Of a DNA stretch of 64,000 nucleotides, positions 1,416 through 26,659 are shown one piece after another. Source of the stretch: Pratylenchus scribneri (lineage: Eukaryota > Nematoda > Chromadorea > Rhabditida > Pratylenchidae); NCBI GenBank assembly GCA_030063045.1, contig JAQSEB010000041.1:62001-126000 (forward strand), written 5' to 3'. The translations under genes and the position numbers were made by a program. Each line of letters starts with the position of its first letter. The first letter of the stretch is position 1. The notes beneath the pieces were generated by a model, which saw only the letters and a list, made by a program, of their open reading frames with translations, did no database searches and was not told where the DNA came from.

Positions 1416-1442
1416 GAATGATTTTTGAAAATTAATGGAAGT

Positions 1443-1455: not shown

Positions 1456-1460
1456 AATTT

Positions 1461-1976
1461 TTAATAGAGACCAAAAGCATCTGAGCGCAATCGTTTTTTC
1501 GAATGCGCCAGAGGCTTAGTGATTGTACTTCCAATTATAGTTTGATGATTTGGAATAAGAGCGGGTTTTTTCCGTGTGGCTCTTCTTTTCCTAGGAAATC
1601 CGCTTCCAAATTGTTTTGGAAAACCTCCTTGTTCCAAAACTGTATCGATTCCTTTCTTTCCTTCACTCAATACCGAGCTCTTTAACGGTTCTCCTTCTTT
1701 GATTTTATCTAAAATTCTTTGACCGGTGTTCAACGCTTCCGCACTAATAGCTGTTCCAGCTTTACTTAATATTGGTAAGAAAAATCTCCATAATCCACGA
1801 AATACATCACCGACTCCGGCTCCTCCTTGTATTCCATAACCCCGTTGAAATGGGGGTGAGCCACGAAAATAGCTAAAACCACCACTATCATTGGGTTCAG
1901 TAGGTAATATACCTCCACCCGTTTGGATAAAATCATCGTAACCTACTGTAGAAGTATCGAAAATTACATGAACCAT
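1461..1976 (-). CDS. Adenovirus pVI/pX-like minor virion protein
   Basis: A 171-aa protein from ATG 1976 (ten further codons if ATG 2003 is used). I prefer 1976 because it follows the TTTAAAAATG context shared by the other genes of the element. A glycine-rich N-terminal part with 'FRGSPPFQRGYG' is followed by an amphipathic helix region (GDVFRGLWRFFLPILSKAG) and a strongly basic C-terminus (RKRRATRKK). This matches the small capsid-lining protein found beside the capsid gene in Polintons. The 'IQGGA' just before the helix fits the adenain consensus (M/I/L)xGG-x, so cleavage by a virus protease would free the amphipathic segment. That suggests a membrane-active, DNA-binding inner capsid role (inference). 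Confidence 0.68.
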   Translation of the reverse strand: MVHVIFDTSTVGYDDFIQTGGGILPTEPNDSGGFSYFRGSPPFQRGYGIQGGAGVGDVFRGLWRFFLPILSKAGTAISAEALNTGQRILDKIKEGEPLKSSVLSEGKKGIDTVLEQGGFPKQFGSGFPRKRRATRKKPALIPNHQTIIGSTITKPLAHSKKRLRSDAFGLY

Positions 1977-2057
1977 TTTTAAATTATAATAATATTTATT
2001 CAATGATAATTTTAGATTTATGAAAAATGAAAATTGATAAAAAGTACAATTTAATAT

Positions 2058-4304: not shown

Positions 4305-4364
4305 TTTTAAAGTTTTTTTTTATTCAATTAAAATTTTACAAATGATTTTGAAAAAATAAAATGA

Positions 4365-4377
4365 ATATATTTATATC
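4365..4377 (-). promoter_or_regulatory. TATA-like promoter of the 748-aa gene
   Basis: Minus strand GATATAAATATAT, 61 bases upstream of ATG 4304. This spacing equals that of the 182-aa gene. Confidence 0.45.
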
Positions 4378-4386
4378 AATTCTGAT

Positions 4387-5478
4387 TTATGTATCTGTTC
4401 CAAATAGTTGAGATTGATGTATCCATTCAGGTTCTTGATAACCAATAAACTTTACTAAATAGTCCATGGTTCCATCTCTTCTCTTTTTCGTTTTCAAAAT
4501 TTCTTGAATCCGATATGATGTCTCTTCATCCTTCCGTACTTTCGATAATTCTTCCGTATAGAAATTTTCTTTGAACGGTTCACCTTTCTCATCTTTAACC
4601 TTATACACAACTGGATTAGAATGCTTCTTGATTTTATCAATTTCCAATATTTCATCTCCCCAGTTTGTATAATATCCTTTTTCAAATTTACCTTTACCTC
4701 GACTCATTCTTACAAAGTCACCCTCTTTGAATTTTATTTTTGATTTTTTGTCATTTATGCTCAATGCATTTCCATAAATTTTCTTCCATACTCGTTGAGC
4801 ATTCCTAAAATTGACATCCACTGGTCTCATGCCATGCACTCTACTTTTTGAAAGATTAATTGCATTAACAATTTTCGGTAGAACATCTATCCATTTTTGG
4901 GTTTGTTTTTCAGCAAAATATCTATAAAGACGTTGTTTTAAATTTTGGATAGCTCTTTCCGCTACTGCAGCTTTTTGATAAGTGGAACTTGCTTCATACT
5001 TTTGTATATCCTCATTTTTAAACCAATTATTCATTAGACGATTTTTGAATTCCGTTCCCAAATCTGAATAGATAACCATAGGTTTCATCGGCATTTGTTT
5101 AATCAGTTCTTCAAATGCTTTAACCATATCCTCGGCTTTTTTAGTTTTAAGTGGAACGGCAAATACTCTTTTTGAAAGTACATCAATTCCAACTAGTATA
5201 TATCGATTTCCCTGATTATCCTTGGCCAAAGCTTGCATATCAGCTAAATCCACTTGAACATGGGTCATAAAACCAGAAGCAATTGTCTTAACTCTAGGAA
5301 AATGTATTCTCCTAGGTCGCATAAGAGTATATGTACGATGACCCTGCAAAAAGTGTTCTACATCCTCTTTTTTAATAGTAGGATTCACTTTTTGTGCTTC
5401 CTTAAGTAATGATTCTTGACCAGCAAAGCCGGCAGGATTTGAAGGATTATTGTAAATATTTTTCAAAATTTTATCCAT
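4387..5478 (-). CDS. Polinton DDE integrase with chromodomain-like tail (F54H12.3-like)
   Basis: A 363-aa retroviral-type integrase. The acidic triad is visible as D77 (VQVDLAD), D139 (IYSDLGTEF) and E174 (VAERAIQNL); the last two are 35 apart, the DD35E spacing. An N-terminal helical region (1-60) carries the 'NPSNPAGFAG' block typical of Polinton integrases. The last 45 residues ('MDYLVKFIGYQEPEWIHQSQL') resemble a chromodomain. Known role: cutting element ends and joining them to host DNA, with the chromodomain steering to histone marks. It is intact with all catalytic residues present. It ends 83 bases before the start of the 748-aa gene and is read in the same direction. Confidence 0.92.
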   Translation of the reverse strand: MDKILKNIYNNPSNPAGFAGQESLLKEAQKVNPTIKKEDVEHFLQGHRTYTLMRPRRIHFPRVKTIASGFMTHVQVDLADMQALAKDNQGNRYILVGIDVLSKRVFAVPLKTKKAEDMVKAFEELIKQMPMKPMVIYSDLGTEFKNRLMNNWFKNEDIQKYEASSTYQKAAVAERAIQNLKQRLYRYFAEKQTQKWIDVLPKIVNAINLSKSRVHGMRPVDVNFRNAQRVWKKIYGNALSINDKKSKIKFKEGDFVRMSRGKGKFEKGYYTNWGDEILEIDKIKKHSNPVVYKVKDEKGEPFKENFYTEELSKVRKDEETSYRIQEILKTKKRRDGTMDYLVKFIGYQEPEWIHQSQLFGTDT

Positions 5479-5512
5479 TTTAATAAAATTAATAATGATT
5501 ACAATATGAATA

Positions 5513-5527
5513 TTGAATATATATTAT
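5513..5527 (-). promoter_or_regulatory. TATA-like sequence before the integrase
   Basis: Minus strand CATAATATATATTCA, 35 bases upstream of ATG 5478 and touching the stop of the upstream gene. It is weaker than the TATAAATA boxes of the virion genes. Confidence 0.3.
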
Positions 5528-5529
5528 GA

Positions 5530-6936
5530 TTAATCTTGATTTTTATATTTTGCAACTCTCTTTTGTAATGCTTCCAATCTTTCTTTATTTGTCATTTTAG
5601 GAAGTCGTCTACTCGTAGAATATAATACTGAATCAATTTCATCTTGGGTCGGCTTCCTGGATGCCCAATTTCGTTTAACTCTCATTCCAACTTCAGCTCT
5701 TTCTGGTATTCCTCTTCGTGTCTTTTTTTCTATTCCTGGAGCCTGAAGACCTTCTAATGGTTTTCTCTTCCTCTCTCTCCTTACGCCCGTAGTAACTACT
5801 TCAATTAAATCCGGATCTCGTCTATATTTTACTCCGGGTCTTCCATACAACTCCATAGATGTTTGAGGTCTAGATTCAGGTAATGGGGCTTCCAAAGCTA
5901 ATTGAATTGAGGATGAAGGTAATGCTGATTTAGTTGATGGACCTTCCAATTCTTCATTGATTTTATGATAATTTCTTATGACGGATGGACGAGAAAGCAA
6001 TGATACAGTGCCCTTTTGTCTATTTGATTTGACAATCTTCTTTCTCTCTGACGTTTCCTTAGGGTATGCGGTTACTCTATTTTTATTCTTCTTTACCAAA
6101 GCCTTTGAATTTAGTTTATCTTTTGTGGAAGGGGTATCTAATATAGCCAATTGTTCTCGACTTGGAGGCGGTAATGTTATAGGTAATAGAGGTGAAGGTG
6201 GAGGAGAATCACCAAATTCATTATCATTTTCAGTTTCTATAGGTTTTTCATGTCTTTGTATAATTTCAATTTGTTTTCCCTTCTTTCTTTTTGTTTCATA
6301 TTGTTTTTTAGTGGATTCTCTAAAAACGGGTTCAATTTCAATCGATTGTTTTTTCAAAGGCCACATTCTAGGAAGAAATTCATCAGTTTCTGGTTTTCTT
6401 TTAATTCCTTTATGCATTGGTTCTTCATCTTTTTGTTCCACAAAAACATCATCCACATCATTTCTTTCTTCCTGATTATTATTTGTAGTTTCATTATTGT
6501 TTAAAGAATTATCATTATTCTCATTAAAATTTGAAACATTTCCTTCCGTATTATTTTGAGGTGTATTTCTGGTTCGTTTAATTTTAGTTATTCTCCTTCT
6601 GTTCGAAGGGATTAAAGGAGGAGGCGGATGTTCTTGAGTATTCGAAAGTTCAATTTTTGGTTGGGGTACAATTGATTCATTGAATAATGCTCCTGAAAGT
6701 GCATCGGCATTACTAACGGCAACATTAATAGGTTTATGTTCTTTTTCATTTCTTAGAAAAAGATAGCGACGTAATTCTTGATTATAATTTACATTTTTGG
6801 CAGAATTTGAAATTTTTTGTCTCTTAGTATTTTCTAGTAGATTTTTTGTAAAATCCAAGTTTATGTCACCACTATCATTAAAGGAAGTTAATCCTCGATA
6901 AATTTCATCAGGTAATAGAATAAATTTATTTGCCAT
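5530..6936 (-). CDS. Disordered basic protein of the Polinton, function unknown
   Basis: A 468-aa intact frame that I do not recognise. The N-terminus (MANKFILLPDEIYRGL) looks folded; the rest is polar and probably disordered. It contains Asn-rich linkers near 130-155, proline runs (PPPPLIP near 105; PPPSPLLPITLPPPS near 245) and many Lys/Arg clusters, with a very basic C-terminus (RRERKRKPLEG, KKTRRGIPERAEVGMRVKRN). It sits between the integrase and the small core protein, a place held in other Polintons by rapidly changing proteins. The charge suggests DNA binding or a virion core role, but this is inference. No catalytic motif is visible. Confidence 0.75.
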   Translation of the reverse strand: MANKFILLPDEIYRGLTSFNDSGDINLDFTKNLLENTKRQKISNSAKNVNYNQELRRYLFLRNEKEHKPINVAVSNADALSGALFNESIVPQPKIELSNTQEHPPPPLIPSNRRRITKIKRTRNTPQNNTEGNVSNFNENNDNSLNNNETTNNNQEERNDVDDVFVEQKDEEPMHKGIKRKPETDEFLPRMWPLKKQSIEIEPVFRESTKKQYETKRKKGKQIEIIQRHEKPIETENDNEFGDSPPPSPLLPITLPPPSREQLAILDTPSTKDKLNSKALVKKNKNRVTAYPKETSERKKIVKSNRQKGTVSLLSRPSVIRNYHKINEELEGPSTKSALPSSSIQLALEAPLPESRPQTSMELYGRPGVKYRRDPDLIEVVTTGVRRERKRKPLEGLQAPGIEKKTRRGIPERAEVGMRVKRNWASRKPTQDEIDSVLYSTSRRLPKMTNKERLEALQKRVAKYKNQD

Positions 6937-6950
6937 TTTTTAAAAATGAT

Positions 6951-7325
6951 TTAAACTTTATCTTTTATATATAATGATTTGGCCAATTCTATAAGAATGG
7001 GAGTTAAAAGTGATGAGAATAATCCGGCTGCTCCACCACCTTTTTGTATAATTAATTTCTTTGCACCCTTTTGGCTTCTCAATCTACTCATTTGACGAAC
7101 AATATTTGCATATGGTATAAGTTTTTGTTTTTGACATTTTGTCAAAGGAAAACGAGATTTTACAATGTTTAATGAAATCTCTGCAATTGCCAATAATTGC
7201 TCTTTTGTAGCATTTTTTAATAATTTATGTCGTTTATTAGATGATTTTGTTTTGGATAATTTTTTTAAAAAATCTTTATTCTCACAAATAATTGGATTAA
7301 TTTGACAATAATTTTTATGAACCAT
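6951..7325 (-). CDS. Small basic virion core protein of Polinton type
   Basis: A 124-aa protein with a Lys-rich helical N-terminal domain ('NKRHKLLKNATKEQLLAIAEI') and a middle region of basic residues. A triple-glycine linker (residues 96-98, after IIQK) precedes a hydrophobic tail (GLFSSLLTPILIELA). This layout is common to a small protein found in many animal Polintons and adintoviruses and compared with adenovirus core proteins. The glycine linker resembles sites cut by virus-type proteases, although it is not a perfect consensus. Its first 11 bases overlap the end of the ATPase frame, so the two are tightly coupled. Confidence 0.66.
   Translation of the reverse strand: MVHKNYCQINPIICENKDFLKKLSKTKSSNKRHKLLKNATKEQLLAIAEISLNIVKSRFPLTKCQKQKLIPYANIVRQMSRLRSQKGAKKLIIQKGGGAAGLFSSLLTPILIELAKSLYIKDKV
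6962..6976 (-). promoter_or_regulatory. TATA-like box before the 468-aa gene
   Basis: Minus strand CATTATATATAAAAG, 26 bases upstream of ATG 6936. It lies inside the last codons of the upstream gene. Confidence 0.4.
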
Positions 7326-7974
7326 TTTTTGGAATGAATATAATTTTTTCTTCGTCTCGTTTAAATATATTTGTTCTTAAACGTAATAAGGAATCAGAAG
7401 AAGCATGCATATCAATAAGCAAATAACCATATCGTTCTTTTGTCGCCTGTTTGTAGGCATCCAAAAAGTAATCGAGCTGTTTCGGAAATAGTTGTACACC
7501 AATATTCCTTATAGATAGAGCCGAATTAGGCGAACGCATCAATACCAAATACTGAGCATTCTGTCTAGCAACTTTGATCTTCTTCTCGAATAGATTTTGT
7601 GTAACAAAAATTATACCAAAATTTTGATGATGACTTTTTGCCGTAAACAAAGATGAGAGATAGGATTCTGGCGTAGAAAGTAATAAATCATCAAGAATAA
7701 GTAATAAAGGTTTTGGCTGCTGTTTTATTATCTCTTCTGGCGGAACGCCAGAATAGATACCAACACCAGCTTTTTGAAAAATTGGTATTAATTGATTCAT
7801 TTCACCATAACAATAGAGTACAGATGCTGGTTTTGGATCAATAAGTTCATCAGATTCAGCAATAAACTTTAGAAGAAAGCTACTTTTCCCACTAGATGTA
7901 GGGCCAGAAACTATCATTCCAAATGGTAATTTGAATTTTAAATCTTTATCTTCAAATAAATGTTGATCAAACAT
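7315..7974 (-). CDS. Genome-packaging ATPase (FtsK/A32 type)
   Basis: A 219-aa P-loop ATPase. Walker A is GPTSSGKS (24-31). Walker B is LLLILDD (about 89-95) with the acidic pair D94/D95. A 'FVTQN' sensor-like motif follows at about 122-126. Length and motif spacing fit the packaging ATPases of Polintons, adintoviruses and poxvirus A32. Known role: pumping the genome into the preformed capsid. It is intact. Its end overlaps the start of the 124-aa core protein gene, and a TATA-like box lies 28 bases upstream. Confidence 0.9.
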   Translation of the reverse strand: MFDQHLFEDKDLKFKLPFGMIVSGPTSSGKSSFLLKFIAESDELIDPKPASVLYCYGEMNQLIPIFQKAGVGIYSGVPPEEIIKQQPKPLLLILDDLLLSTPESYLSSLFTAKSHHQNFGIIFVTQNLFEKKIKVARQNAQYLVLMRSPNSALSIRNIGVQLFPKQLDYFLDAYKQATKERYGYLLIDMHASSDSLLRLRTNIFKRDEEKIIFIPKNGS

Positions 7975-8001
7975 TTTAAAAATAAAAAATAAAAATAATA
8001 A

Positions 8002-8015
8002 ATATATTTATAATG
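8002..8015 (-). promoter_or_regulatory. TATA-like box before the ATPase gene
   Basis: Minus strand CATTATAAATATAT, 28 bases upstream of ATG 7974. It overlaps the stop codon of the 182-aa gene. Confidence 0.42.
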
Positions 8016-8556
8016 ATTGATTTAATGGAATATCTGGTTTAAGAAATTCTTCAATGATTTTTATATCTTCATTTTCATTAGTTTTTTTATTTTGTTTTTG
8101 GATTTGTGAATTCATCGGATATCCCAAAGCATTCAAATGCCCAAGAAATTGTTCAAAGTCCGGTTTTGAAATCATATTTGGAGGAGGAATATTTGAGTAA
8201 GGTGGAATATTAGTTTGCAAATTTTTTGGAGCTGGCATTTCTCCATGTGGGATATTGAAAACCCGTCCTTTATTTTTAATTCGAAAGAAACAATATCCAG
8301 GAAGTTCGTATGTCTGGTCAAATGCAACAAATTTTGGTCCTTTAATTCGACTACAATAAACTGTCACTCCATCCTTAGTCACGATAAAATCCAATTCCAC
8401 TTCTGTTGCTTTGCATTCCCTACAACGACCACATTGATCGAAAGGAATGAAGCGAGGAGTAGAAAGTCGTTCATTGGAATTAATAGTAATTCCGGTTGAA
8501 AGAATATTGAAATCGATTTCCGGTAGAATTTGAGAAGTTAATGTCGGTAATGACAT
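8008..8556 (-). CDS. Polinton protein with a CxxCxxC cluster, function unknown
   Basis: A 182-aa intact frame. After a short N-terminal part it has 'CGRCRECKATE' (about residues 42-52), a cysteine knuckle able to bind a metal, then beta-like stretches ('VTVYCSRIKGPKFVAFDQ', 'YCFFRIKNKGRVF') and a proline-rich C-terminus ending in acidic and polar residues. I do not recognise the family. Its position between the FLYWCH-like gene and the ATPase, and its own TATA-like box, show that it is a separate gene of the element. Confidence 0.68.
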   Translation of the reverse strand: MSLPTLTSQILPEIDFNILSTGITINSNERLSTPRFIPFDQCGRCRECKATEVELDFIVTKDGVTVYCSRIKGPKFVAFDQTYELPGYCFFRIKNKGRVFNIPHGEMPAPKNLQTNIPPYSNIPPPNMISKPDFEQFLGHLNALGYPMNSQIQKQNKKTNENEDIKIIEEFLKPDIPLNQSL

Positions 8557-8615
8557 TTTTGATTTTTAAAATTTTAAATGATTTTGAAAAATGAATGATT
8601 TAAATAAAAAACTCC

Positions 8616-8629
8616 GATATTTATACACG
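8616..8629 (-). promoter_or_regulatory. TATA-like promoter of the 182-aa gene
   Basis: Minus strand CGTGTATAAATATC, 60 bases upstream of ATG 8556. Its core is nearly the same as the capsid gene's box. Confidence 0.45.
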
Positions 8630-8676
8630 TTTTTGTCGAATCAATATTCATCAAATATTTTAATCCGGATGGAATA

Positions 8677-9150
8677 TCATTGAAAGAAAAGAGGAAAATG
8701 TATAGATTCATCTTTGGGGATCTCTTGAATATTACTGGTAGGAAAATCATCTTCATCTAAATAGACACAATCAGGGTGGGGAAAATGATCACAATCGTCT
8801 TCTGGTATATCTGGAATATCCCCCCAGTCAAAATCTAGATGAGGATATTGATCGTTATCATCTTGCCAATCATAGAGCAAACCATAATAAGGTTCCCATG
8901 CTTCTATAAGTGCATGTTCATGTTTTCCATAAGTTCTAATTTTATCTTCATCAACATTCCAATCATCTCGTATGATATATGCTCTGCATTTGTAAGCCGT
9001 ATCGGCTAAATCACAATTCCATCTTTCATATTGATCTGTCCTTATCCACTCTCTGGGATTGTAAATTAGACATTTATATAAATATCTATATCCCTTGTGT
9101 ATAATTCCAAATCTTTCGTATTTTTTATTGAAATTATTTTCTGAAGACAT
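8677..9150 (-). CDS. FLYWCH-like zinc-finger protein with acidic tail
   Basis: A 157-aa frame. Residues 20-85 follow the FLYWCH pattern: aromatic strand (GYRYLYKC), 'RWNC', then 'KCRAYI' and a closing 'HEHA', giving a possible C2H2 metal site. The C-terminal half is very acidic and aromatic (YDWQDDNDQYPHLDFDWGD), with further Cys/His residues (DDCDHFPHPDC). FLYWCH domains are known from insect and nematode transcription factors and are often carried by mobile elements. It may regulate the element or bind its ends (inference). It is the first gene from the right edge of the element. Confidence 0.55.
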   Translation of the reverse strand: MSSENNFNKKYERFGIIHKGYRYLYKCLIYNPREWIRTDQYERWNCDLADTAYKCRAYIIRDDWNVDEDKIRTYGKHEHALIEAWEPYYGLLYDWQDDNDQYPHLDFDWGDIPDIPEDDCDHFPHPDCVYLDEDDFPTSNIQEIPKDESIHFPLFFQ

Positions 9151-9759
9151 TTTTAAATAATTTTAGAATGAATTTTTAAATTTGAATAAATGTATATGTA
9201 TTTTGGTTATAGATATTTTAATTATATATATATATATTTTTATAGAGCTTAGATATTTTTGAATATAGATATTTTAGTTATAGATATTTTTGTTATAGAT
9301 ATTTTGATTATAGATATTTTGTTTTTAGTTATTTTGTTTTTAGATATTTTGGTTATAGATATTTCGGTTATAGATATTTCATATGTAGTATTTTGATTAT
9401 AGATATTTTGTTTTTAGTTATTTTGTTTTTAGATATTTTGGTTATAGATATTGTAGAAATGTATTGAAACTAATAATGTTTACGAAAGGTTATTTGCAAA
9501 TTTATTTAAAAATTAAATTTTTGGCATTATGTATTCTTATTTTTTCACTTTCCATCAATATCATTATTATGAAATCAAATGCATTCACCAGCTTATAATC
9601 GTCATTCCATAAATCAATCATTCACATAATTTTAGTAGACTAGAAGTATTTCATTTTATTTTATAAAATCATTAATCAATAATTTCATAATATAAACTTT
9701 CAATTTTTAGCAAAGCAAATCTCAATTAAAATCTTTTTTTTTAACAATTCAACCAAAAA
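9151..9759. other. Right flank of the Polinton, no gene
   Basis: AT-rich sequence holding the tandem array at 9181-9460, followed by about 300 bases without coding signal. The boundary between element and host lies somewhere here. I see no clear inverted repeat within the window to define it. Confidence 0.6.
9181..9460. repeat. Degenerate AT tandem array at the Polinton edge
   Basis: About 18 imperfect copies of a unit near 14 bases, such as TATAGATATTTTGG, with variants GATT, GTTT and AGTT. It starts 30 bases outside the first gene of the element. Polinton ends often carry short tandem repeats, so this could be the subterminal part of the inverted repeat. Confidence 0.7.
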
Positions 9760-11108: not shown

Positions 11109-14100
11109 CTACCCACCTTTAATGAAATCGCCGGCCTCATAATCTGCTGGCGGTGGCACAACAGGTGAAATGGCCCCAGTCAATGTTCGTAAAAGCACAT
11201 CCAACGCTTCACGCCCATAATTCGTGTCCAAATTGAATTGGTTTAGGTCACGCGATTCGGCTGCCCTTCGATCCCCTTGAGTCAATGCGCCCAAACATTC
11301 AAGGCGTTTGGCCACAATTGAGGCAAACCGCTTTTCGCCGGCCAACTCAGAAATGAGAAACAGATATTCCGGTGCACTTTCTTGGTTGGAACGGTGTGTT
11401 CGGCCTATGTGAAAAATATTTAAAAATATATTTCAAAAATGTTCAATTAAAAAAAATTAAATGAAATTTAAATTAAAAATATTAAAAAAATCTAATTAAA
11501 AAATTTTCCAACCAAATTGTTGAATTGCTTTATCCGCCGACCATGGCAATTCCAATGTGATGTGAACTCGCCTTCTTGTGTTCAATGCTCGTTTGTCCGA
11601 CTTAAAAATATGAATAATTAAATTAAATTTATTGCAAAAAAATTGAAACTTGAATAAGTAAAATATTATTTTAAAAAATTTCCTATAAGAACCTAACCCC
11701 CTTCCTGAGAATTAATTTGTAAATTAAAAAAAAAAATTAAAAATTATTTACTTTTTATGGGAATTAAAACTTTCGCCCCTTTCCAATTCAATTCATAAGC
11801 AAAACAAAGACTACCACTATCCACTACACTACAAAAAAGTTTAACTGTCCCAGAAAGGGTTCCCGGAAAACTGGTCAGTGAGGAAAGCTCTGGTCAGCGA
11901 GGAAAAATGGTCAGTGGAAGACTGGTCAGTACGGAAAGCTGGTCAGTGGGGAAAACTGGTCAGTACGGTAAACTGGTCAGTGGAAAAGTGGTCAGTAAAG
12001 AAATGAGTCTAAAAATGCTCTAACTTGTATATTTTCGAGCCATTTAGGAAATTAAGGTTTGATTCATGCATAGCTCTTCGAATTACATCGATTTAAGCAT
12101 AATACTTACGGTTTGTCTACCGAAAAAAGAAATTACCCACTGACCACTTTTCCACTGACCAATTTACCGTACTGACCAGTTTTCCTCATTGACCAATTTT
12201 CCGTACTGACCAGTCTTCCACTGACCATTTTTCCTCACTGACAAGCTTTCCTCACTGACCAGTTTTCCGAACACGCCCAGAAAGAATTATTTTTTTTTTC
12301 AAAAATCAGACAATGAGATTTGGGAGTCAAAATATGTTTTTTAAATAAGTAGTTTAAAACAATTGAATTCAATTAAAATTTCCGAGCTTTTTTGCTGAGT
12401 TCTATAGGAAAAATGCCGGCCAAAAATTGGCCAGATAGGAAAATTTTCTTCTTCAGTGAAAATTTATAATAGAAAGTCAGCAATTGGCAAATGGCAACCC
12501 TTCATTGTTCTATGATTTAAAATATTATTTTCTACCTGAAGTGATATTCCAGAACTGGCCGCTTCCGAAATGATGGCCACCAATTTTTCGCCTCGCATGA
12601 ACTTTTCCTATAACAAAAATTTAATTCCAATTAAATATTTAAAAATGCACCTTTTCGGCCATATTCATCAACTCCAATGTGATATCCGAATCCACCGTGC
12701 GCAGTTCATATTCCACATCGCCGGTGCCTTCTCGGGCTACAATTCGTCCCTTCCTCCCGGTCATTTCGGCCACAAATTGGGGGCCACCCAACAAATTTAT
12801 GAGGCTATCCAGCGTGTTGGCTGGCAACAATTTTCCGAGGCGTTCAATGGCGGCCAACAAATTTGTTTTGATTTCAGTCAAATTCACACAGCCATCATCG
12901 TCTTGGCACGAGTCACCGATGATGTTTGAGGAGGCAATGAATTCTTCGGCAGTTGTTGTGCACTGAAAAGTAAAAAAAACATTGAAATTATCGAAAAAGA
13001 GTTATAATGCAATAAACGGTTTAATGGTTTGTCCCACACATTTACAAACCAAATATACCAAAAATTGGATAGAGATGGTCAAGACGCATTGAATGATATA
13101 TAATTTGGTTTTGGCTTGGTCAACAATATTAAAGGGTTTTAAACGCCACATTTTGGTTTAATGGTACAAAACTAAGTTTAAAATTGGTTAAACCATACAT
13201 GCGCTGGGGGGGGGGGGCAACTGTTGCACCCACGGGTAGTAGTATTTGAAAATTTTGGAAGTGGGTAGTATTGGGGACCGGAGAATTGAAAAATTTTATT
13301 CGTTTTTTGCCAATTACTACCCTTTTTTGGCTTTTTTCCTCCTAAAAATGAGTAAAAATCTTAAAATTTTTCTTCTGCGGCGCCAATCGGCACCGTAGAA
13401 TTTTTTTTCTCCTATTATTTGGCAAAAAATGCAAAATTTTGAAGGTTTTTTACCAAAGAATATCAAAATCTTCTCAGAAACTACCCACTTTTTCCAAAAT
13501 AAAGGTTCCTTGTTTTCGGTGGATGGTATCGGAAAAAATTTTTTCGACTTTTTTTTAAGTGGGCATCGGACCCAAATGTTGCCTCCGCCAAGCGCATGTA
13601 TGGGTTACCCAAAGCCAAAACATAATCTAATGATGCATATTGACGAGATCTATCGATTGGACAAAAGTTTTGGGTTTGGGATTCAAAAAACCGTTTTTCC
13701 TTTTATATTCCTTCAAAATGGACCCACCTTAACATTGGAAGCCACCGCTTTCAGCAATAAATTTTGCTTCTTCTTCATCTTTTGCTGATCTTCACGCGAC
13801 TTTTTTGCTGCTGGTTTTTTTATTGGACGTTTTGGTGGCATAATTTTCTTCTTCTCTTCCTCAATGTTAATTTCCGGTAAGCCAAAGCTGTCGTCTTCTT
13901 CTTCCACCGCCTCTTGAATATTATTCGCCCATGGATCCTAAATAGAAATTCAATTTTAAATAAAAAAAATTATTAAATTGAATTTTAAATAAAAAATTAT
14001 TAAAATGAATTCTAAATAAAAAAAATTAATAAATTGAATTTTAAAAATAAAAAATATTAAATTGAATTTTAAAAAAAATATTAAATTGAATTTTAATAAA

Positions 14101-17100
14101 AAAATTATTAAAATGAATTTTAAATAAAAAAAAATTAATAAATTGAATTTTAAAAATAAAAAATATTAAATTGAATTTTAAAAAAAAATATTAAATTGAA
14201 TTTTATTAAAAAAATTAAATTGAATTTTAAAAAATAAAAATAATTTTTTTTGCCCTACCTCTTGAGTCAAATCACACGAAAATGGATTGATTTCGGCAGT
14301 GTTGGAAGCAACCATTTTCGGCTTTTTTGCTGATGTTGCCTTTACTTGGGAAGAAGAACAAATAAGTCGCTCCAATTCCTCCTCATCACTGTCGTCAATT
14401 GCATCATCTGATAAAAATAATAATATTAAATTAACAAATCAAATTATTAAATTTTATCTATAAATTTTCATGTTGAAAAATCAATATTTTGGGCCATAAA
14501 ACTTGGCATTAATAAAATTTGGGGGCATATTAGTGCCAAATTTTAGGCAAGATAATATGACTTAAAACGGAATCGATTTGGTCAAGTTATTTTTTGACAA
14601 GAAAATTTTTGATTAACTTGGACTTGGCAATGAAGAAACGGAGTTTTAGGTTTTAAACTAATTTTGTTATTATGCATCAAATTTGATGAGGAAAGAATAT
14701 AAAAATAATGTTTTTGAGTATTTATTTCATATGTTTGACGTATTTTTTGCAAATTTTTACCTATTTTGGCACATTTTTAAGGGAAATTTTATCAATAAAA
14801 TGCAATTAAAACCGAAAAATTAAATATTTTGAATGACATTAAGGAAATATTTTTCAAATTTCAAGAAAAAAAAATTTATAGACATCTATTTTATGACCTA
14901 AAAATGTGTTCCCTAATAATGACATCGAAAATGAATAAAAAATTTACCTTCAGAAGTTGCATCAACATTTTCCTCTTCTGTATCATCTTCTTCTTCCTCA
15001 TCCGAGCTTTCCTCAACATTTGAATCATTTTCTTCATATTCTTCCTCATCTTCCTCCTCTTTGTTCTCTTCAAATTCCGAATTGCCGCCACTTTCCCTTT
15101 CGGCCGTCAATTTGTCATGATAACTTTGGTGGCATTGGCTGCTTCTTTTCGGCTTTTTCAACAATGGACCACCATCGCTGCTTGCGAATGAATTTAATTC
15201 TCCTATAAATTTTAAAAATTATTTAATAATTTTCTCAAAAATTAAAAAAAAATTTAATAATTTTCTCAAAAATTAAAATTAGTTTTGACTAGCTCGATGG
15301 TAGGAATTTTTTTACTCTAATTACCGTATTTCGTCTATAAATGTATTGTAAAATACTGTATATAAAAATGTCCCAAAAATATGTACAATGCATGAAAAAT
15401 AATTTCCTGATTCGTAGTTCGAACCCTAACTCCCAAATTTTGTAAAACTGAATTCCCTCCCCCATATTTTCACAGGTAAACTTAATTTTCAAACTTAAGA
15501 TTGAAGGCTAGGTTTAAATTTAAAGGCTGGGCTTTGGGCAGGGTTTCAAGAGAAAATTTTTAAAAATATTTGAAAATTTTCAACCCATAAGGGAGATCCT
15601 CCTTTCTCCTCTTTTGCAAAATTTAGGTCTTGTGTTCGAATCCACTCTAGAGGAAAATTTTTTTCTCACATTTTATGCATTTAACAAATTCTAAAATAAA
15701 TATCTAGAAGACGATAAAAATTCCGAAAATTTTGAATGACACCGTAGTTATTGCAAAATTCAGGGGTCTCGGGTTCGAATCCACTCAAAGGTAAATATTT
15801 TTTCTCGGACATTATGCCGACTTTTATGCATATTTACACATTCTAGAGTATATTTCTAGAAGAAATACAGTAATTCGAACAAAAACTTAACCATCAACCC
15901 ACTAATATTCCCCCAAAAATATATTTTTAAAAAATTTACTTTTTCTGCTGTTTGCATTTCCCTCCATAGTCAAAAACATCCGTTGAAAATCATCAATTCC
16001 ACTGCTATCATTGTGAGTGGGGAAATAATTCTCCACCAGTGATTGAATGACGGATTTTGCAGTGCTAACGAATTCAGTGACTTCACCATTCTCTTCGAGG
16101 AAATCCAAAATGTGCGATTCCCCAGTGGACTGGAGGCCAATTACAACGCATTTCTTCGCATTTATGGCTTCCATTGCAATTCGAACGCAGGCATCCACTT
16201 TGGCCGAAATGCACAAATATTTGAAGAATCGTTGGTGGGCCGCCCAAAAGCGGGCCCAAACATTTTGTGCTCGACCTCCACCCGGTTTTTGCTCGGGCAT
16301 GTGTTTCAGTGCTTTCTGAAAAAAGAACAAATTATAAATTTGTAAAAAATGGATGTAAATTAATTTACGCATAAAATCCTAATCCTTATCCTTCGAAATT
16401 GGTTGGTCTCGAAATTTTTTTAAATTTTCATTAAAATTTTCAAAAATTATATTTTAATTTGAAAATAGTATTGGTGTCCATCTTATCATTTTCTTGGTAA
16501 AAGTTGACATTCTCTTATCAATTTGGTAAGAAATGACGAAAAGGATTCAAATTCTCTGCGTAACCAAAAGTCCTAGAAAATAATTTTTGATAATTAAAAA
16601 TTTTTTCAGGACCAATTCCGAAAGATTGCCCATAAAATCATTGGGAATTCAATGAAAAATTTTCTGCTGAAAAATTAGGCCTTTTAAGGCTATTTAACTT
16701 GGCTATTTTCTGCCTAAAATCTTGCCCTAATCCTAAACTCCAACATTTTTTTGAGTGGCTATTAAGTTTTAAGGCCTCAATTCTCAATCTTCAAAAAATA
16801 TTGAATTTTTTACAAAAATTTATTGGTAAATTAATTCAAAAATTTTATAGAAATTAATATTATTTTCTAATAAAAAATTCAAACCGCAAATTGACGTCTG
16901 CATTCCATCCACAGTTTGACAGATTCATCATAAATGTTGATAAAGTCACGGGTCAGCTGAACTTCCTCAACAAAGAAATCGGCTCCTTTGAATGAAAGTT
17001 GTCGGGACAAATAAAGACCGCGAAGCTTAAAATAAGGAAATTAATTAGGTAAAAAATTGGTAAATAATTGGATATGCCCTTTGCCCTAACTTGGCACCAT

Positions 17101-20100
17101 TTAAAATAACTCATCAAGAACTGAACCAATTTTGATGATTTTGGTATCAAATTAAAGAGCAGACTTTTGGCTATCTAATGAAATTAATTTTGTTTAAATT
17201 GGTTCAGAATTAATGGAATTATGTTCAAAAAAACCGTTGAAAATTTTGCTAATCTATAGTAAATGTCATTTTAATTGGTTTTTTGGTCACAATTTCATTA
17301 ATTCTGAACCAATTTAAATAAAATTAATTTCATTTGATAGCCAAAAGTCTGCTCTTTAATTTGATACTAAAATCATTAAAATTGATTCCGTTTTTGCTGA
17401 GTTATTAAATAAAAAATATAAAAAAACCTTCATATCCATTGCCACCATTTCCATTGCGCCAACTCCACGATTTTCGACGGCATGAATAAAATCGCCAAAT
17501 GTCAAGAAAGTCAGTCCTCTTCCCCAAAGCCCCAAACGCGTCATGTAGGCCATGTTTCGTGGTTCTGTTCAAATGAATTATTTTAAAAATGATTAAAAAA
17601 TTCAAAATGTAAACCGGTTCAGAAATTTGTGCTAAACCCATAAATCTTATACCCAAAAGCCAAAATCCAATCGATAGTTCCCAATCAAGACGCATCATTT
17701 GACTGTGTTTTGGTTTCGGTTTAACCAATTCTAATTCAGTTTTGAACCAAAAACCAAAATGTGGTTTAAACCGTTTAAAACCCTTTAATTGTTGACCAAA
17801 CCAAAATGTGGTTTAAACCGTTTAAAACCCTTTAATTGTTGACCAAACCAAAATGTGGTTTAAACCGTTTAAAACCCTTTAATTGTTGACCAAACCAAAA
17901 TGTGGTTTAAACCGTTTAAAACCCTTTAATTGTTGACCAAACCATAACCAAATTATATACCATTCAATGTGTTTTGACCAGCTCTATCCAATTTTAGGTA
18001 TATTTGGTTTATGAATGTGTTGGACAAACCCTTCTTAAACCATTATAATTTTGGCATTTTTCGGCAAATTATAAATTTATTTTGTCGGTTACCTGTTGCA
18101 CCCGTTGCCGAAGCATAAACAATCCGTGCGCCCAAAAGGGCCTGTTGCAATTCCAAAACCACCCGACCCGTCTTGGTTGGCTTTGAGCCGGCAGTTGGGC
18201 AAAGATTTTTGGCCCGGTGGCATTCATCGAACACAATGACCCCGTCAAAATCTTTCCCGCACCATTGGAGCAGTTGCTTTAAACGAGTATGGCATTTTTG
18301 GTCGTCGCCCTGCCGACTTTCGCCAATCAACGATGAATATGTGGCAAAAATGACGCCTTTGTTGATTGAACCTGAGCATTGAATGGAAAGATGAGAATTG
18401 GAAATGATGAGAAAAATAATTCTTTTACTGTCTAAAAGGAAATGGAATTTATCCCAAAATCCTAAGAACCAACCTTGGTCCTTGGAGTCCCTAAAGTTTA
18501 TAGTCAACTTAATTAAGCTTAAATTTTCTCCCTTGATATTTCCTATTGTGGGTGTTGAAATTGGATTTTGGGGTCCACAACCACAAGGATGGAACTCTGA
18601 TTGTGAGTCAGTTGTTGAGAATACTTTGATTTTCTCAAAAATGAACCTGGTTTGTCTTGGGAGGCAACCGGCTACCGGCATATCAAAATTACCTATACCT
18701 TCAGAAAACCATCCAAAATATCCGAAAAAGCCTTATACACGCCTTAAGATGCCCCACTGAGACAAAACTTAGTCTTTGATTTTACTCTGATTCTTTGTTT
18801 TTAAGAAACATTACATTTACATTAATCCGAAACCCGAGCGGCTAAAGCCTTAAAGTTAATCCCGCATTTTTCTCTATAGATCTCTGAGTGTAGGTAATTC
18901 CTCTAAAAAGTGAGGGTTGATAGATGATTGATCTGGCACATCTAATACATTTAAACATTTTGAAAATTCAAATAAAATTTTTTTGTCTCAATTTTATTTC
19001 ATATAGAAATTAATATGATTGATGATTCTAATTCTCTAATAAACAAACCATTGCTTGGATGATTGATTTTGTTGTAGCGCATTTTGTTGAGGGCATGCAC
19101 TGGAATTTTTGAGGCGCCAATGTCCCGGAGATCACGTTCCGCGTCGTATTTCAAATCGGCCGAAACGCTGAGCCAAATTGTTTTACGGCGGCCGCGCAAA
19201 TAGTTCTCATAGATGATTGTGGCAATTGTTCGGCCTTTTCCAACACCGGCGCCGTCACCTGAAAATTTAATATTATGAGAAAAAGAATTTTGGGATAAAT
19301 TAGGGGGGCTAGTTTAGGGTTGGCTAGTTTTTATAGTCTTTATCAAAAACAAATCAAATTGTTGAAAAATGTTCGACCCAAATCCCAAACGGGGGATCTT
19401 TCACTTTAGTAGGCAAAATTTAGGTCACAGATTTTGGTTTCAAACCCGAAACCTGTTCAGATAAAATTTTTGCTCGATGTAATGTACATCACACCACTAT
19501 GTATTTTTAGAAATTCTAAGTTACATTTTTTAGTCGAAAAAGAACCAAAAAATGAGATGGGAAATAGGGAAATGCGTTGAACTAATACAAAAAAATAAAG
19601 ATTAGACCCTTATTTTTTGCAGCGTGCACAGTGCAGCCTAACCTTTTTTAAGGTTGTTAAGGCTTATAATTAAGACTAGGCTAGTCCTAGCGACTAGGTA
19701 CTAGGTTTTAGGCTGACTAGAGTTTACAAAAAAAAATATTCCGATTTCCGAAATTGTGGAATGAAGGATCCCCTTTTCCTTTGCTTTTGCAAATTTCGGA
19801 CTTAAAAGTAAATAAGTTCCAAAAGGCGATCATTTTTAGCCGAATAAACCAAAAAACAAACCAATCAAATATCCGACTCGCTCTCCGGATGGCAAAAACT
19901 TTTGATGCGCCTGACAAGCATAAAGGGCTGCCTCCAATTGCAAATCCGAGATCTTTCCGGAATCAACCTGTAAAAATAACAAAATTAATTGAATTAAATT
20001 AAATATAAAAATGAAACCATTTCATCGGGGATTGCCATTGTGTAGCGAATGTCCGGCGGTGAGACGCTGTTCAGGGAAAGTGTTTCAACGACTTCATCTG

Positions 20101-21275: not shown

Positions 21276-22411
21276 ATGCTCGGAAAAGTTGCAGAGAAAA
21301 AACTCCGTAAAGGTCGTCGTAGGTCCTCTTCCACACAATCACATCTTAAAGATACAAGGTTAACACAAACTTTTCAAATTAAAATGACCAATTATTTAGC
21401 AATATATCAAACAAGCACAGAAATTCCGCTGAAAATGTTGCGGAAGATCACAAAATCACTGAATACTTTTTGGTCCGCCGGAGCAAGCGAAAGACTGCCA
21501 AGGAAATTGAGGTCCAAAAATCAGATTTACATCCACCAATCCAATAATTTTAAGGATGACAACATGAAATATATTCAACATTTGATTAAAACCGGCTCAA
21601 CCGAGGAATTTTTGGAAATTTACACGGATGAGGTCAAAGGTCGGGGCATTCGAGCGTTGAAGCCTTTTCGAAAGGGCGAATTTGTTGTTGAGTACAAAGG
21701 TTTAAATTTAATTTATTAAATTAAAAATGCAAAATTTAGGCGAGATCATCCCATCAAAGAAGGCTCAAATTCGTGAGGAGGAATATTCAAAAAATGAGGC
21801 CATTGGCTCCTACATGTATTATTTCAAGCATCGCAATGTGGAATATTGTGTGGATGCCACCGAAGAAACACCGTTCAAGGGTCGTCTCATAAATCATAGC
21901 TATTTACGGCCAAACCTGAAGACACGGGTTTGTGATTTTAGCAATAAAATTTTTTGAAAATTTTGACCCGAAACTCAAGGTTTTTGACCAAAATTCATTA
22001 ATCTTAAGGTTTTTGGGCCAAAATAATTTAATCAAGGTTTTTTGACCAAATTTAATTAATCCTAAGGTTTTTTGGATAAAATTAATTAATCTTTAGGTTT
22101 TTGACCAAAATTAATTAATTTAAGGTTTAAATTCATTAATCTTTAGGTTTTTGGGCCTAAAATTCATCAATCTTTAGGTTTTTGACCAAAATTCATTAAT
22201 CTTAAGGTTTTTGACCAAAATTTATTCTAAATTATCGCAAAAAATGTTTAAAAAATTTACTTAAAATTTTCAGATCCTCGACTTTGGAAGGAGTTTCCAC
22301 CTTGTGCTTGTGGCCAAGAGGGACATTGAAATTGGCGAAGAGTTATTGTATGATTATGGCGAACGACGCCCGGATGTGGTTGCCCAAAATCCATGGCTAC
22401 TCAGCTCATAA
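21276..22411 (+). CDS. set-1: Histone H4K20 monomethyltransferase, SET8/PR-Set7 type
   Basis: Exons 21276-21699, 21740-21927 and 22274-22411 join in phase to 249 aa. The SET domain fills the C-terminal half: 'GRGIRALKPFRKGEFVVEY', then 'GSYMYYFKHRNVEYCVDAT', the pseudoknot motif RLINHS, and ELLYDYGERR with the catalytic tyrosines. It ends NPWLLSS, and the arrangement is that of SET8/KMT5A without a post-SET zinc site. Known role: monomethylation of lysine 20 of histone H4, for chromosome condensation and, in C. elegans, dosage compensation. The N-terminal 100 residues are basic and poorly conserved. The second intron (346 bases) holds a short tandem repeat of 'CTTAAGGTTTTTGACC' type. ATG 21276 was chosen since upstream codons in the same frame look random and AT-rich. 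Confidence 0.9.
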
Positions 22412-23114
22412 TTTTTTTTCCACCAAAGCCAATAGCCAAAACCAGCCTTTTAACCTTTCTTTCAATCCTCCACCAGCTACCACCGTTTTCCGAAAGATAC
22501 TCAACAATTCGCTTATATTTCCATTTTATTTATTTATAAATATTTGAATTTTGAACCTCATTTATGCTTCATTTTTTCGGATAAAATTTATTTTAACTTT
22601 TTTTTTCAATTTTCATTTATTGATTACATTTTTTATTTTTATACCTCATATTTTAAATATAATTTGCACTTTTAAATATTTATGAATAAATGAGAAATAT
22701 TTTTTACCTAAATAGTAGTTTTTGACTTCTAATAAATCAGAAAGCAGTTTTAAACTCTAAAAACCTTATACCATTTTGTAGGTCTCATCGAGATGCATCG
22801 AATGGTATAAAAAATGTCCAGGTTTTTTGACCCAAAATTAAAGAGTAAAACCAAATACTGGAAAAATGGTTTAAACGGTTTAATACCCTTTAATTTTGGG
22901 CCAAAACTTGACATTTTATATACCATTCGATGCGTCTCGATGAGATCTACAAAATTGTATAAAATTTGTAGGGTCTAAAACTGGTTTCTGATTTATTAGA
23001 AGTCAAAAGCTATTTTAAGATAAGTAAAATAGTAACCAACTAAAAATAGCAACAAATTTTAAATTAATTTATAAATTTTAAATAATTCCAGCAGAAAATT
23101 TTGTGCTAATAAAT
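22412..23114. other. Spacer between SET8 and LigD-like genes
   Basis: AT-rich; holds the fold-back at 22716-23015 and an acceptor-like AATTCCAG at 23084-23091, 23 bases before the LigD-like ATG. That site fits either a cis intron from an unseen 5' exon or trans-splicing. Confidence 0.5.
22716..23015. repeat. Fold-back element, family F2
   Basis: Arms starting with TTTTTGACTTCTAATAAATC and ending with its inverse (GATTTATTAGAAGTCAAAAG). Inner parts around GAGATGCATCGAATGG are also inverted. Relatives at 54652-54800 and 59666-59955. Confidence 0.75.
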
Positions 23115-26100
23115 ATGGAACATGATAAACGCGACGAAATTGCGGGCGTAAAATTAACAAATTCTGGCCGAATCTATTTCCAAGAAAATTCAATCACAAA
23201 AGCGGATTTGGCCGCCTATTATGAACGTGTTTCGGCCAAAATGTTACCATTGGTAAATTTTGATTTCATTAAAATGAAAAATTTATTGCATTGCAGGTGA
23301 ATAACCGGATTCTGAGCATGGTCCGTTGTCCAAGTGGTCTTCAAGGTCAAAAATTTTACGAAAAGCATGCAAAAAATTTTCCGCCGGCCATGAAAGTTGT
23401 TCAACTTGTTGAGAAGGGAGGACACAAAAAACCATTCGGTGGGTAAAATATTGGGAAATATTCCAAAAAATTTAATCGATTTATGTATTAAGCATGCGTC
23501 GATGGACTTGGCTCAATTGTTGCTGCAGTCCAAATGGGCACGCTGGAATTTCACATTTGGGGTTCACAATCGGATGATTTGGAAAGGCCCGATCGAATTG
23601 TGATGGGTGAGTTGCGGACCAAAAAAATAATCAATATTCTATATTATTAATTTTTCCATGAATTATTGAATTTAATTAGAGTAGTCCAAATTCATTTTGC
23701 AAAGGTATCTGTTTTAAAATCCAATTTTCGATTTTTAAAAATGTCGGTTTAGTTTTCTTTTAATCTATTTTTTATTTCATATATTTTCTGAAACCGGGAC
23801 CGTCTTTTGACTACACTTAAATTACTCAAAAATTTACATCTAAAATATCTTCATTCCTAGGCCTTATACTTTAAATATGAGAAAATATTAAAGCCTAAAT
23901 TTGGAGATAGAATTGGCTTATAAATTAGACGGAATTTTCAATTGTAATTTAGTGTAATTGTAATTGCGATTGTAATTGTAATTGAGATTGTAATTGTAAT
24001 TGCGATTGTAATTGTAATTGCGATTGTAATTGTAATTTGCGATTGTAATTGTAATTGCGATTGTAATTGCGATTGTAATTGTAATTGTAATTGCGATTGT
24101 AATTGTAATTTGCGATTGTATTGTAATTGGAATTTCGATTGTAATTGTAATTGCGATTGTAATTGTAATTGCGATTGTAATTGTAATTTGCGATTGTAAT
24201 TGTAATTTGCGATTGTAATTGTAATTGCGATTGTAATTGTAATTTGCGATTGTAATTGTAATTGTAATTTGCGATTGTAATTGTAATTGTAATTGCGATT
24301 GTATTGTAATTGGAATTTCGATTGTAATTGTAATTGTAATTTGCGATTGTAATTGTAATTGGAATTTCGATTGTAATTGTAATTGCGATTGTAATTGCGA
24401 TTGTAATTATAATTGTAATTGCGATTGTAATTGTAATTTGCGATTGTAATTGTAATTTGCGATTGTAATTGTAATTGCGATTGTAATTGTAATTTGCGAT
24501 TGTAATTGTAATCGAGATTGTAATTGTAATTGCGATTGTAATTGTAATTGCGTGTAATTGCGATTGTAATTGTAATTTACGATTATAATTGTAATTGCGA
24601 TTGTAATTGTAATTGCGATTGTAATTGTAATTGCGATTGTAATTGTAATTGCGATTGTAATTGTAATTGCGATTGTAATTGTAATTGCGATTGTAATTGT
24701 AATTGCGATTGTAATTGTAATTGCGATTGTAATCAGGGCTGCCAGATGGTTTTTCGCTTTGGGGGGCATTTTGGTATAAAAAAGGGGGCATTTTCGCTAA
24801 AAAGGGGGCATTTTGGGGGGCAGTTTTAAAAAGTGCCAAAATGCGAAAATTTTTGCCAATAATGGCCGCGCAGCGAAAAATTAGACCAAAAAATTGCCGC
24901 GCAGCGAAAAATTTTGAAGAAAATGACCCATTTGGGGAAAATTTTGAAGAAAAATGACCCATTTGGGGAAAATTTTAACAAAAAATCAAAAGGGGGCATT
25001 TGGGGGGCAACTCGGCTCGGGGGGCAAAAAAGGGGGCAAAATCCTAAAAAGGGGGCAAATGCCCCCCGTGGGTGGGTATTCTGGCAGCCCTGATTGTAAT
25101 TGTAATTGCGATTGTAATTGTAATTGCGATTGTAATTGTAATTTGCGATTGTAATTGTAATTTGCGATTGTAATTGTAATTTGCGATTGTAATTGTAATT
25201 TGCGATTGTAATTGTAATTTGCGATTGTAATTGTAATTGATATTGTATTTAAAAAGAGAACAATTTGGTGTTTAATGGTTTAAAAAATTACCAATTTTCG
25301 AAAAATAAAATTCTGGATAAAATCAATGATTTTACTTTTACATTTTATTGATTATAATTTCATTATTATTCCTTCACAGATATTGACCCAGGGGACGAAG
25401 TCACATTTGGCCAAGTGAAAGAGGCAGCATTCGAAATCCGTGACAAAATGTTGAAGTCATTGGGACTGAAGACTGTGCCATTGTTGACCGGCGGAAAAGG
25501 AATTCATGTGATTGCTCCATTGGTGATAAAAAAAAATACAAAAAATTAATTCTAATTTTGAATTAATTGTGAAAGGTGCCAAAAGCGAAATGGCCAGAAA
25601 TTACGGAAATAACGCGACGAATTGCAGTGGAAATGGAGAAGGAAAATCCCGAAAAATACATTTCAAAATCAGTGAAAGCAAAAAGGTGGGAATTTTTAAA
25701 TATTAAAAATTGAAGTATTAATTTGATTTAGGAAGGGTCTAATGTACATTGACTATTTGCGCAATGCTCGTGGGGCAACCGGTAATTTTTAATTATTTTT
25801 TTTTAAATTTTTAATTATTTTTAAAAATTTTTAAATAATTTTTCAAAATTTTTTCATTTATTTTTTAAATTAATTTTTTCAATTATTTTCTTCATTTTTT
25901 TTTATTTTTTCAAAATTTTTAAGATAATTTTTCAAATTTTTTCAATTGCTTTTTAAAATTTTTTAATTTAATTTTTAATAATTTTTTAAATTTTTTCATT
26001 TATTTTTTAAATTAATTTTTTCCATTATTTTCTTCATTTTTTTTTTATTTTTTCAAAATTTTTAAGATAATTTTTCAAATTTTTTTCAATTTTTTTTAAA

Positions 26101-26659
26101 AATTTTTTAATTTAATTTTTCAATTATTTTTAAAATTTTTGCAATTATTTTTAGTTATTTTTTAGTAATTTTTCAATTATTTTTTAAATTAATTTTTCCA
26201 TTTTTAGCAATCGCACCATATTCTACAAGAGCGCGAAATGGGGCTCCGGTGGCAGCGCCCGTGTCTTGGGATGAGTTGAAGAATATCGACGCACCAAATG
26301 TTTATAACATTCAGGTAGAAAAATGGAATATTATATTTGGGGAATAAAATTTGCTCAAAAATAAAATTTTAGTTTTTAAATTTAGTCGGGAAAAATTTAA
26401 ATGAAATAATTTTTATGAATGATTACCAAAAGCCACAAAATAGACAAAAATCAGCGGCAGTTTTTCGATTTTTTGGCCATAAATTTCTGGCCAATTTAAA
26501 CTGTGATCCAAACATTTTAATGTCAAAATTTTATATAAAAAAGGAAATTAATCAATTAATTAATTAATTAATTAATTTTATTCTTTTTAGAATATGATGG
26601 AACGAATCAAGGAGAAAGATCCATGGGAGGAAAGCTACAATTGGAAGCAGTCAATTTGA
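23115..26659 (+). CDS. Bacterial LigD-type polymerase/primase domain with seven introns
   Basis: Exons 23115-23252, 23297-23438, 23493-23606, 25380-25522, 25576-25685, 25732-25781, 26208-26314 and 26591-26659 join in phase to 290 aa. The protein matches the LigD polymerase domain from end to end: 'SITKADLAAYYERV' (26-39), 'VRCPSGLQGQKFYEKH' (55-70), 'QMGTLEFHIW' with H114, the metal motif DIDP (D132, D134), 'LTGGKGIHV' (167-175), 'YIDYLRNARGAT' with the third acidic residue D223, 'PYSTRARNGAPVAAP' and 'DPWE' near the end. Known role of the bacterial domain: adding nucleotides or ribonucleotides at breaks during end joining. No ligase or nuclease domain follows, so it is a stand-alone version. 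Seven spliceosomal introns and flanking animal genes exclude simple bacterial contamination. All active-site residues are kept, which suggests selection. Confidence 0.9.
23942..25250. repeat. 18-bp satellite array, interrupted by a hAT-like MITE
   Basis: About 50 copies of TGCGATTGTAATTGTAAT with small variants, in intron 3 of the LigD-like gene. It is split at 24734-25092. On the minus strand it reads as endless Asn-Tyr-Asn-Arg codons, which is not a real protein. Confidence 0.92.
24734..25092. mobile_element. Non-autonomous hAT-like MITE with 8-bp target duplication
   Basis: Perfect 13-base inverted ends: CAGGGCTGCCAGA at the left and TCTGGCAGCCCTG at the right. The direct repeat ATTGTAAT flanks at 24726-24733 and 25093-25100. 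Length 359 bases, no coding frame. The inside has GGGGGCATTTT repeats and the motif GCCGCGCAGCGAAAAATT, shared with the element at 55075. The 8-base duplication and CAGGG ends are hAT features. It inserted into the satellite. Confidence 0.9.
25790..26200. repeat. T-rich low-complexity stretch in LigD-like intron 6
   Basis: Repeating TTTTTAAATT-type sequence, with one block of about 130 bases present twice (near 25845 and 25990). No coding signal. Confidence 0.7.

Follow-up and report, generated by a model that had tools for sequence, protein, structure and literature searches.

A 64,000-nucleotide stretch of the Pratylenchus scribneri genome (bases 62001-126000 of contig C41, hereafter the window; the genome comprises 227,248,964 bases in 276 contigs) carries, at 23115-26659 on the forward strand, a gene for a stand-alone LigD-type primase-polymerase, which we call LigD-Pol. 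Polymerases of the LigD kind are known from prokaryotes, where they serve in end joining. The reading that we favour, with a probability of roughly 0.6, is that this gene entered the lineage once, in an ancestor that lesion and cyst nematodes share, likely through transfer from a soil bacterium of Phyllobacteriaceae type, and that its predicted role is short-gap filling at sites of damage in nuclear DNA.

Splice reconstruction joins eight exons into 873 nt, encoding 290 amino acids plus a stop codon, and all seven introns are GT-AG (44, 54, 1773, 53, 46, 426, and 276 nt in the window copy). This structure had been proposed at the same positions in an earlier sequence-only reading, and it recurs with an open frame on contigs C10 and C71, each of which carries another copy; the exon model is therefore not a chance assembly of open frames. 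Exons 2-8 below rest on splice reconstruction and copy comparison.

23115..23252, forward strand: exon 1, residues 1-46 (96% identity with the C10 and C71 copies)
23297..23438, forward strand: exon 2
23493..23606, forward strand: exon 3, with H114 and the first base of the D132 codon
25380..25522, forward strand: exon 4, with the remainder of D132, D134, and TGGKGIH
25576..25685, forward strand: exon 5
25732..25781, forward strand: exon 6, with D223, the third aspartate
26208..26314, forward strand: exon 7, with R240
26591..26659, forward strand: exon 8, including the stop codon

The 290-residue product is a full LigD-type polymerase domain, as the sequence-only reading had it. Residues 28-280 match Pfam PF21686 (LigD_Prim-Pol) along the whole profile (positions 1-254 of 254; 281.3 bits, E = 1e-83, cut-off 27.4), and TIGR02778 scores 266.2 bits against a curated cut-off of 214.7, while the model for complete DNA ligase D, TIGR02776, scores 294.8 bits, under its equivalog cut-off of 373.2. 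The predicted catalytic residues stand where they had been placed: D132, D134, D223, H114, and also H174 are kept in all three copies and are invariant in the nematode alignment, with the TGGKGIH loop at residues 168-174. Equally borne out is the absence of the other LigD parts, since Pfam finds neither a ligase nor a LigD_N (LigD nuclease) domain in the protein, and no LigD_N match occurs in the genome at E 0.001. An identity as an animal primase or PrimPol was rejected: DNA_primase_S, the small subunit of the eukaryotic replicative primase, scores 22.4 bits, below its curated cut-off of 26.8, and both family assignment, well above cut-off, and structural alignment are of LigD type.

Among the nearest known systems is the LigD polymerase domain, for example that of Pseudomonas aeruginosa (2fao), with which the nematode protein shares the whole-profile match, the LigD-Pol fold, the catalytic aspartates, H114, H174, the GGKGxH loop, and R240, but from which it differs in being encoded by a nuclear, intron-bearing gene that lacks ligase and nuclease domains. 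The stand-alone NHEJ (non-homologous end joining) polymerase of the archaeon Methanocella paludicola (5dmu) and mycobacterial Prim-PolC (6sa0) are likewise LigD-type proteins of similar size with no fused ligase. The 5'-phosphate pocket of Prim-PolC is kept in the nematode protein (N16, R19, Y21, K29, and P58), with one change of K to R (R19 is K23 in Prim-PolC); by contrast, Prim-PolC has a Loop 3 past residue 300 (P320, N321), whereas the nematode protein stops at 290, with residue 289 aligned to 297.

LigD-Pol is retained under purifying selection. The three copies lie on syntenic contigs, with about 30 kb around the gene in the window largely colinear with C10 and C71; their exons are 95.7-100% identical to those of the window copy, and 7 of the 290 residues vary. 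Non-synonymous divergence (dN) among them is 0.006-0.008 and synonymous divergence (dS) 0.05-0.13, giving by two methods a dN/dS of 0.06-0.12 within this one genome, not near 1, which agrees with the selection that the sequence-only reading had suspected from the intact active site. Replacement changes account for 4 of 15, 5 of 27, and 5 of 22 differences, against expectations of 11.7, 21.1, and 17.2 (one-sided p = 3e-5, 8e-11, and 5e-8, in pairwise comparisons that share sequences and so are not independent). Intron lengths vary among the copies (1773, 1559, and 840 nt for intron 3; 426, 217, and 66 nt for intron 6), and the following features accompany the coding exons in the window.

23607..25379, forward strand: intron 3, 1773 nt, with a tandem array and an insert that enlarge it
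23953..24733, forward strand: 18-bp tandem array in intron 3, about 43 copies
24734..25092, forward strand: non-array insert within the array, resembling a miniature inverted-repeat transposable element, with inverted ends GGGCTGCCAGA/TCTGGCAGCCC
25092-25238, forward strand: 19-bp array in intron 3, where the tandem array resumes after the insert
23086..23091, forward strand: TTCCAG, resembling a 3' splice site, 23 nt before the ATG

The exact 15-base array unit occurs 41 times in the introns of C41, 32 times in those of C10, and 7 times in those of C71; an exact-string search of the C10 and C71 introns for the insert ends found none. TTCCAG also precedes the ATG in the other copies, by 20 nt (C10) and 16 nt (C71), and is a possible spliced-leader or 5'-UTR (untranslated region) acceptor.

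Relatives of the gene were sought by protein searches with LigD-Pol (best 120 of 1,350 matches) and with a nematode profile (best 120 of 2,169), restricted to 0.55-1.75 times the query length and thus favouring stand-alone bacterial proteins, and by a scan of genome contigs without such a limit. Four nematode-type proteins, P0001 to P0004, were among the matches listed. P0003, from Heterodera schachtii, and P0004, from Globodera pallida, are each 57% identical to LigD-Pol; P0002, from a 1,410-bp contig, is 67% identical, and in structural alignment 34% identical to 2fao. Databases name the orthologues as a ligase D polymerase domain or as 'ATP-dependent DNA ligase', the latter being the name of the G. 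pallida protein, whose one listed domain is the LigD polymerase. P0001, from an ENA contig of 778 bp, shows 95% identity from residue 54 to the end and reads without interruption through the places of introns 2 to 7; these introns total at least 1.3 kb in each of the three copies, so the contig is either spliced or from an intronless gene, and we read it as a putative spliced transcript of a close relative. For the LigD gene (niasHS_010205) and the SET-domain gene (niasHS_010385) of H. schachtii alike, the longest contig listed measures 2,954,855 bases; we take both genes to lie on one contig, a remnant of the linkage seen in P. scribneri.

The bacterial affinity of the nematode sequences is clear from the protein search and the contig scan, and in the trees they form one clade. 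We built trees from 84 and 71 of 203 collected sequences, the first midpoint-rooted and the second rooted on one Sphingobium row and omitting the Gemmatimonadetes row L111, near-duplicates (including P0001 and the C10 copy), and other rows. The nematode clade contained 7 of 7 rows in the larger tree (support 100/98) and 5 of 5 in the smaller (100/100). In the 71-row tree, the better of the two, this clade is nested within 46 rows of Phyllobacteriaceae-type LigD polymerases (96/95), a label of our own for a group that also holds Rhizobiaceae, Chelatococcaceae, and Notoacmeibacteraceae rows, and the bacterial row nearest by path is a stand-alone protein of Mesorhizobium sp. J18. The highest identities to bacterial genomes, among the best 80 of 556 loci, were 57% for a fused LigD of Chelativorans sp. 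ZYF759 and 56% for the stand-alone protein of Mesorhizobium sp. J18. An approximately unbiased (AU) test rejected placement of the nematodes with the main fused clade (p = 0.003) and, at the borderline, with the main stand-alone clade (p = 0.048), these p values being indicative only, as the clades were named after the tree had been seen. The favoured reading takes a Phyllobacteriaceae-type (Rhizobiales) bacterium as the likely donor in a single transfer into an ancestor of both nematode groups, lesion and cyst.

Among the same best 80 of 556 confirmed bacterial loci, 56 have a ligase-like in-frame upstream part, 20 are stand-alone (at most 90 residues of upstream frame), and 4 fall between; the ligase label relies on the motif K-x-DG-[YFV]-R, which we take to mark ligases, and a Pfam check of locus type covered one fused and one stand-alone locus. 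Since close bacterial relatives are in part stand-alone already, the ligase and nuclease need not have been lost once the gene had been transferred; the donor may already have been without both parts. Transfer followed by domestication, the course proposed by the sequence-only reading, is supported by bacterial affinity, introns, and host flanks. The nearest bacterial group comprises the stand-alone genes of Chelativorans, Nitratireductor, and Mesorhizobium sp. J18, whose proteins extend 298-307 residues from the match start; they differ from the nematode gene in being intronless, in a GC content of 60-64% (three measured), and in an adjacent LysR regulator (two loci checked). These two loci are those of Mesorhizobium sp. 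J18 and Nitratireductor aquibiodomus (L033 and L047), and of the five frames beside them that were submitted to Pfam, none showed a Ku or ligase domain.

Animal-type genes flank LigD-Pol on both sides, as had been claimed. The upstream neighbours are as follows.

21435..22411, forward strand: SET-domain gene of KMT5A/set-1 type, three exons used (Pfam SET, 81 bits)
12639..18732, reverse strand: exons of a strawberry-notch helicase (Pfam Helicase_C_4 at 12639-13001, AAA_34 at 18043-18732)

In the protein search, the SET-domain gene has nematode histone H4-K20 methyltransferases as its best named matches. On the downstream side, 43 open frames were selected between 27.0 and 64 kb and 42 of them scanned with Pfam; the domains detected were a synaptobrevin domain (4e-13), a TMEM131 Ig-like domain (7e-9), and a pyridine-nucleotide oxidoreductase domain (5e-13), plus weaker matches.

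The predicted function draws on the retained pocket and on what is reported for related enzymes. Excerpts of published work describe Prim-PolC as engaging a 5' phosphate over a short gap and, during base-excision repair, using ribonucleotides to fill 1-3 nt, and describe NHEJ primase-polymerases as having template-dependent, terminal-transferase, and gap-filling activities (PMC5663958, PMC7442782, PMC4538821). By analogy, the nematode protein would bind the 5' phosphate across a gap of one to a few nucleotides or an aligned break, and would add a few nucleotides, probably with the preference for ribonucleotides seen in its relatives, while D132, D134, and D223 would hold the two metal ions used. 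Because it brought along no ligase or end-trimming domain, the enzyme would depend on host partners: the nick would be sealed by host ligase IV or ligase I, and the protein would either act alongside the Ku70/Ku80 and ligase IV of the host or take part in base-excision repair. Such partners appear to be present, as genome profile searches gave Ku-domain matches at six places on four contigs, which we read as putative exons of Ku70 (C41, and C10 twice) and Ku80 (C59 twice, and C23), and ATP-dependent ligase exons that we read as probable ligase I (C20, C114) and ligase IV (C124, C81, C201, C42). The estimate of diploidy given in excerpts of a published study (PMC10138993) sits uneasily with three syntenic copies of LigD and four loci resembling ligase IV, and ploidy above diploid looks possible in P. 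scribneri.

LigD-Pol may further act in place of polymerases (Pol) beta, lambda, and mu, in a lineage where we found no family-X polymerase: neither the palm nor the thumb model of family X matched anything in the genome at E 0.001, and the palm model had no match at E 10 either, in a search that is weak for split genes. Family X is a different polymerase family from LigD-Pol, and a family A polymerase is expected in every animal for mitochondrial DNA. The likeness to Pol beta, lambda, and mu is one of function, namely short-gap filling in base-excision repair and NHEJ, according to excerpts of a study that also describes Pol beta and lambda as believed, until recently, to be missing from protostomes (PMC6264785); C. 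elegans is reported, in an excerpt, to lack Pol beta (PMC7744777). A broader proposal, which we offer tentatively and consider distinctly less probable than the gap-filling role itself, is that lesion and cyst nematodes replaced lost family-X polymerases with a bacterial LigD polymerase that favours ribonucleotides and is integrated into a eukaryotic pathway, either Ku70/Ku80-ligase IV or base excision, creating a hybrid animal-bacterial form of end joining.

Several observations weigh against transfer from this donor followed by retention as a gap filler. In the 84-row tree the nematodes are not nested but sit beside the long-branch Gemmatimonadetes row L111 (67/60), and a position outside the whole Phyllobacteriaceae-type set is not rejected (AU p = 0.19). 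P0001 and P0002 owe their nematode assignment solely to the tree, and the transcript support comes from outside P. scribneri. The same exon-by-exon search for family A as a control returned nothing at E 0.001 and three 14-bit matches at E 10, so that the apparent absence of family X carries little weight. The loop-1 residues S95 and R97 of Prim-PolC, together with its R77, Q234, and A242, are changed in the nematode protein. Near-invariant Q68, adjoining the wedge residues F66/Y67, is E or D in 7 of 7 nematode rows; all 196 rows taken as bacterial have Q there. At D136, adjoining the DxD motif, nematodes have G or A, and 190 of those 196 rows have D. Such shared changes may reflect a shift in substrate preference or an adjustment to host partners. 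As a control, the protein database was searched with the SET-domain neighbour (best 120 of 339), which recovered entries from Meloidogyne, Ditylenchus, Aphelenchoides, Bursaphelenchus, Steinernema, Brugia, and Caenorhabditis (C. elegans), while no entry named for these genera was among the best 120 of either LigD search, in which most entries are nameless and unannotated genes would be missed; Meloidogyne proteins are thus in the database, and LigD-Pol may be dispensable in that related genus. Finally, the sequence does not decide between roles in NHEJ and in base-excision repair.

We weighed four alternatives. One, which we judge improbable, is that the transferred LigD-Pol is mainly a PrimPol-like primase for damage tolerance, repriming at stalled forks. 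C. elegans is reported, in an excerpt, to lack PrimPol; P. scribneri, by contrast, has Herpes_UL52 zinc-domain exons on two contigs (29.9 bits; C2:1075078-1075233 and C47:1301633-1301779), which suggest that its genome already encodes PrimPol. The 5'-phosphate pocket for gap or end binding is kept in LigD-Pol, and Pfam finds no zinc domain in its 290 residues, both arguing against repriming. Slightly less probable again is that the gene is kept and translated in a regulatory or structural role, or is heading to decay, as might fit the alteration of 10 of 64 near-invariant bacterial sites in nematodes and the lack of a named Meloidogyne protein among the best 120 matches; the three catalytic aspartates conserved across the aligned nematode rows, the low dN/dS among three intact copies, and orthologues that are still 57% identical in two cyst-nematode genera speak against it. 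Two or more transfers into nematodes, or passage via another eukaryote, would suit the long stem and a donor that is not pinned down, but we consider this quite unlikely, given that, for both trees, a branch separates the nematode rows from all others in every one of 200 bootstrap replicates (100%) and that no other named eukaryote is among the best 120 matches of either LigD search. Bacterial contamination of the assembly was rejected as having a negligible chance, despite the bacterial kind of the protein, on account of the seven GT-AG introns, animal-type genes on either side, a flank of about 30 kb that is colinear across the three contigs, the presence of orthologues in annotated nematode genomes, and a GC content of 44% here against 60-67% in five bacterial relatives.

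Elsewhere in the window, positions 66-9162 on the reverse strand hold a run of long open frames that includes an integrase (Pfam rve, 34 bits); capsid-like and packaging-ATPase-like frames were assigned there without a family match, in a Polinton/Maverick-like reading of the element. Scans of the window for tRNA genes and Rfam families found nothing.

The titles and abstracts listed in searches of the open literature, which exclude subscription papers and preprints, describe no LigD in nematodes, and the word 'ligase' is absent from the main text of a 2026 compendium of metazoan transfers (PMC13342648). We rate both the enzyme family and the acquisition route as known, and as new the LigD-polymerase branch living as a conserved animal gene. 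The closest precedent for a foreign repair enzyme in an animal is ligase E of bdelloid rotifers (AvLigE, formerly LigK), which excerpts of the published account present as a repair enzyme of prokaryotic kind acquired and kept by an animal; it differs in being a ligase rather than a polymerase, in its uncertain donor, and in having been tested in vivo (PMC10665377). An intron-bearing, conserved animal LigD-Pol would place a polymerase among the few foreign DNA-repair enzymes that animals have kept, and its identification corrects the database name 'ATP-dependent DNA ligase' of the G. pallida orthologue. Vertebrates use an unrelated enzyme family for the short-gap filling predicted here, and LigD-Pol offers a testable answer to how some nematodes may fill short gaps without Pol beta.

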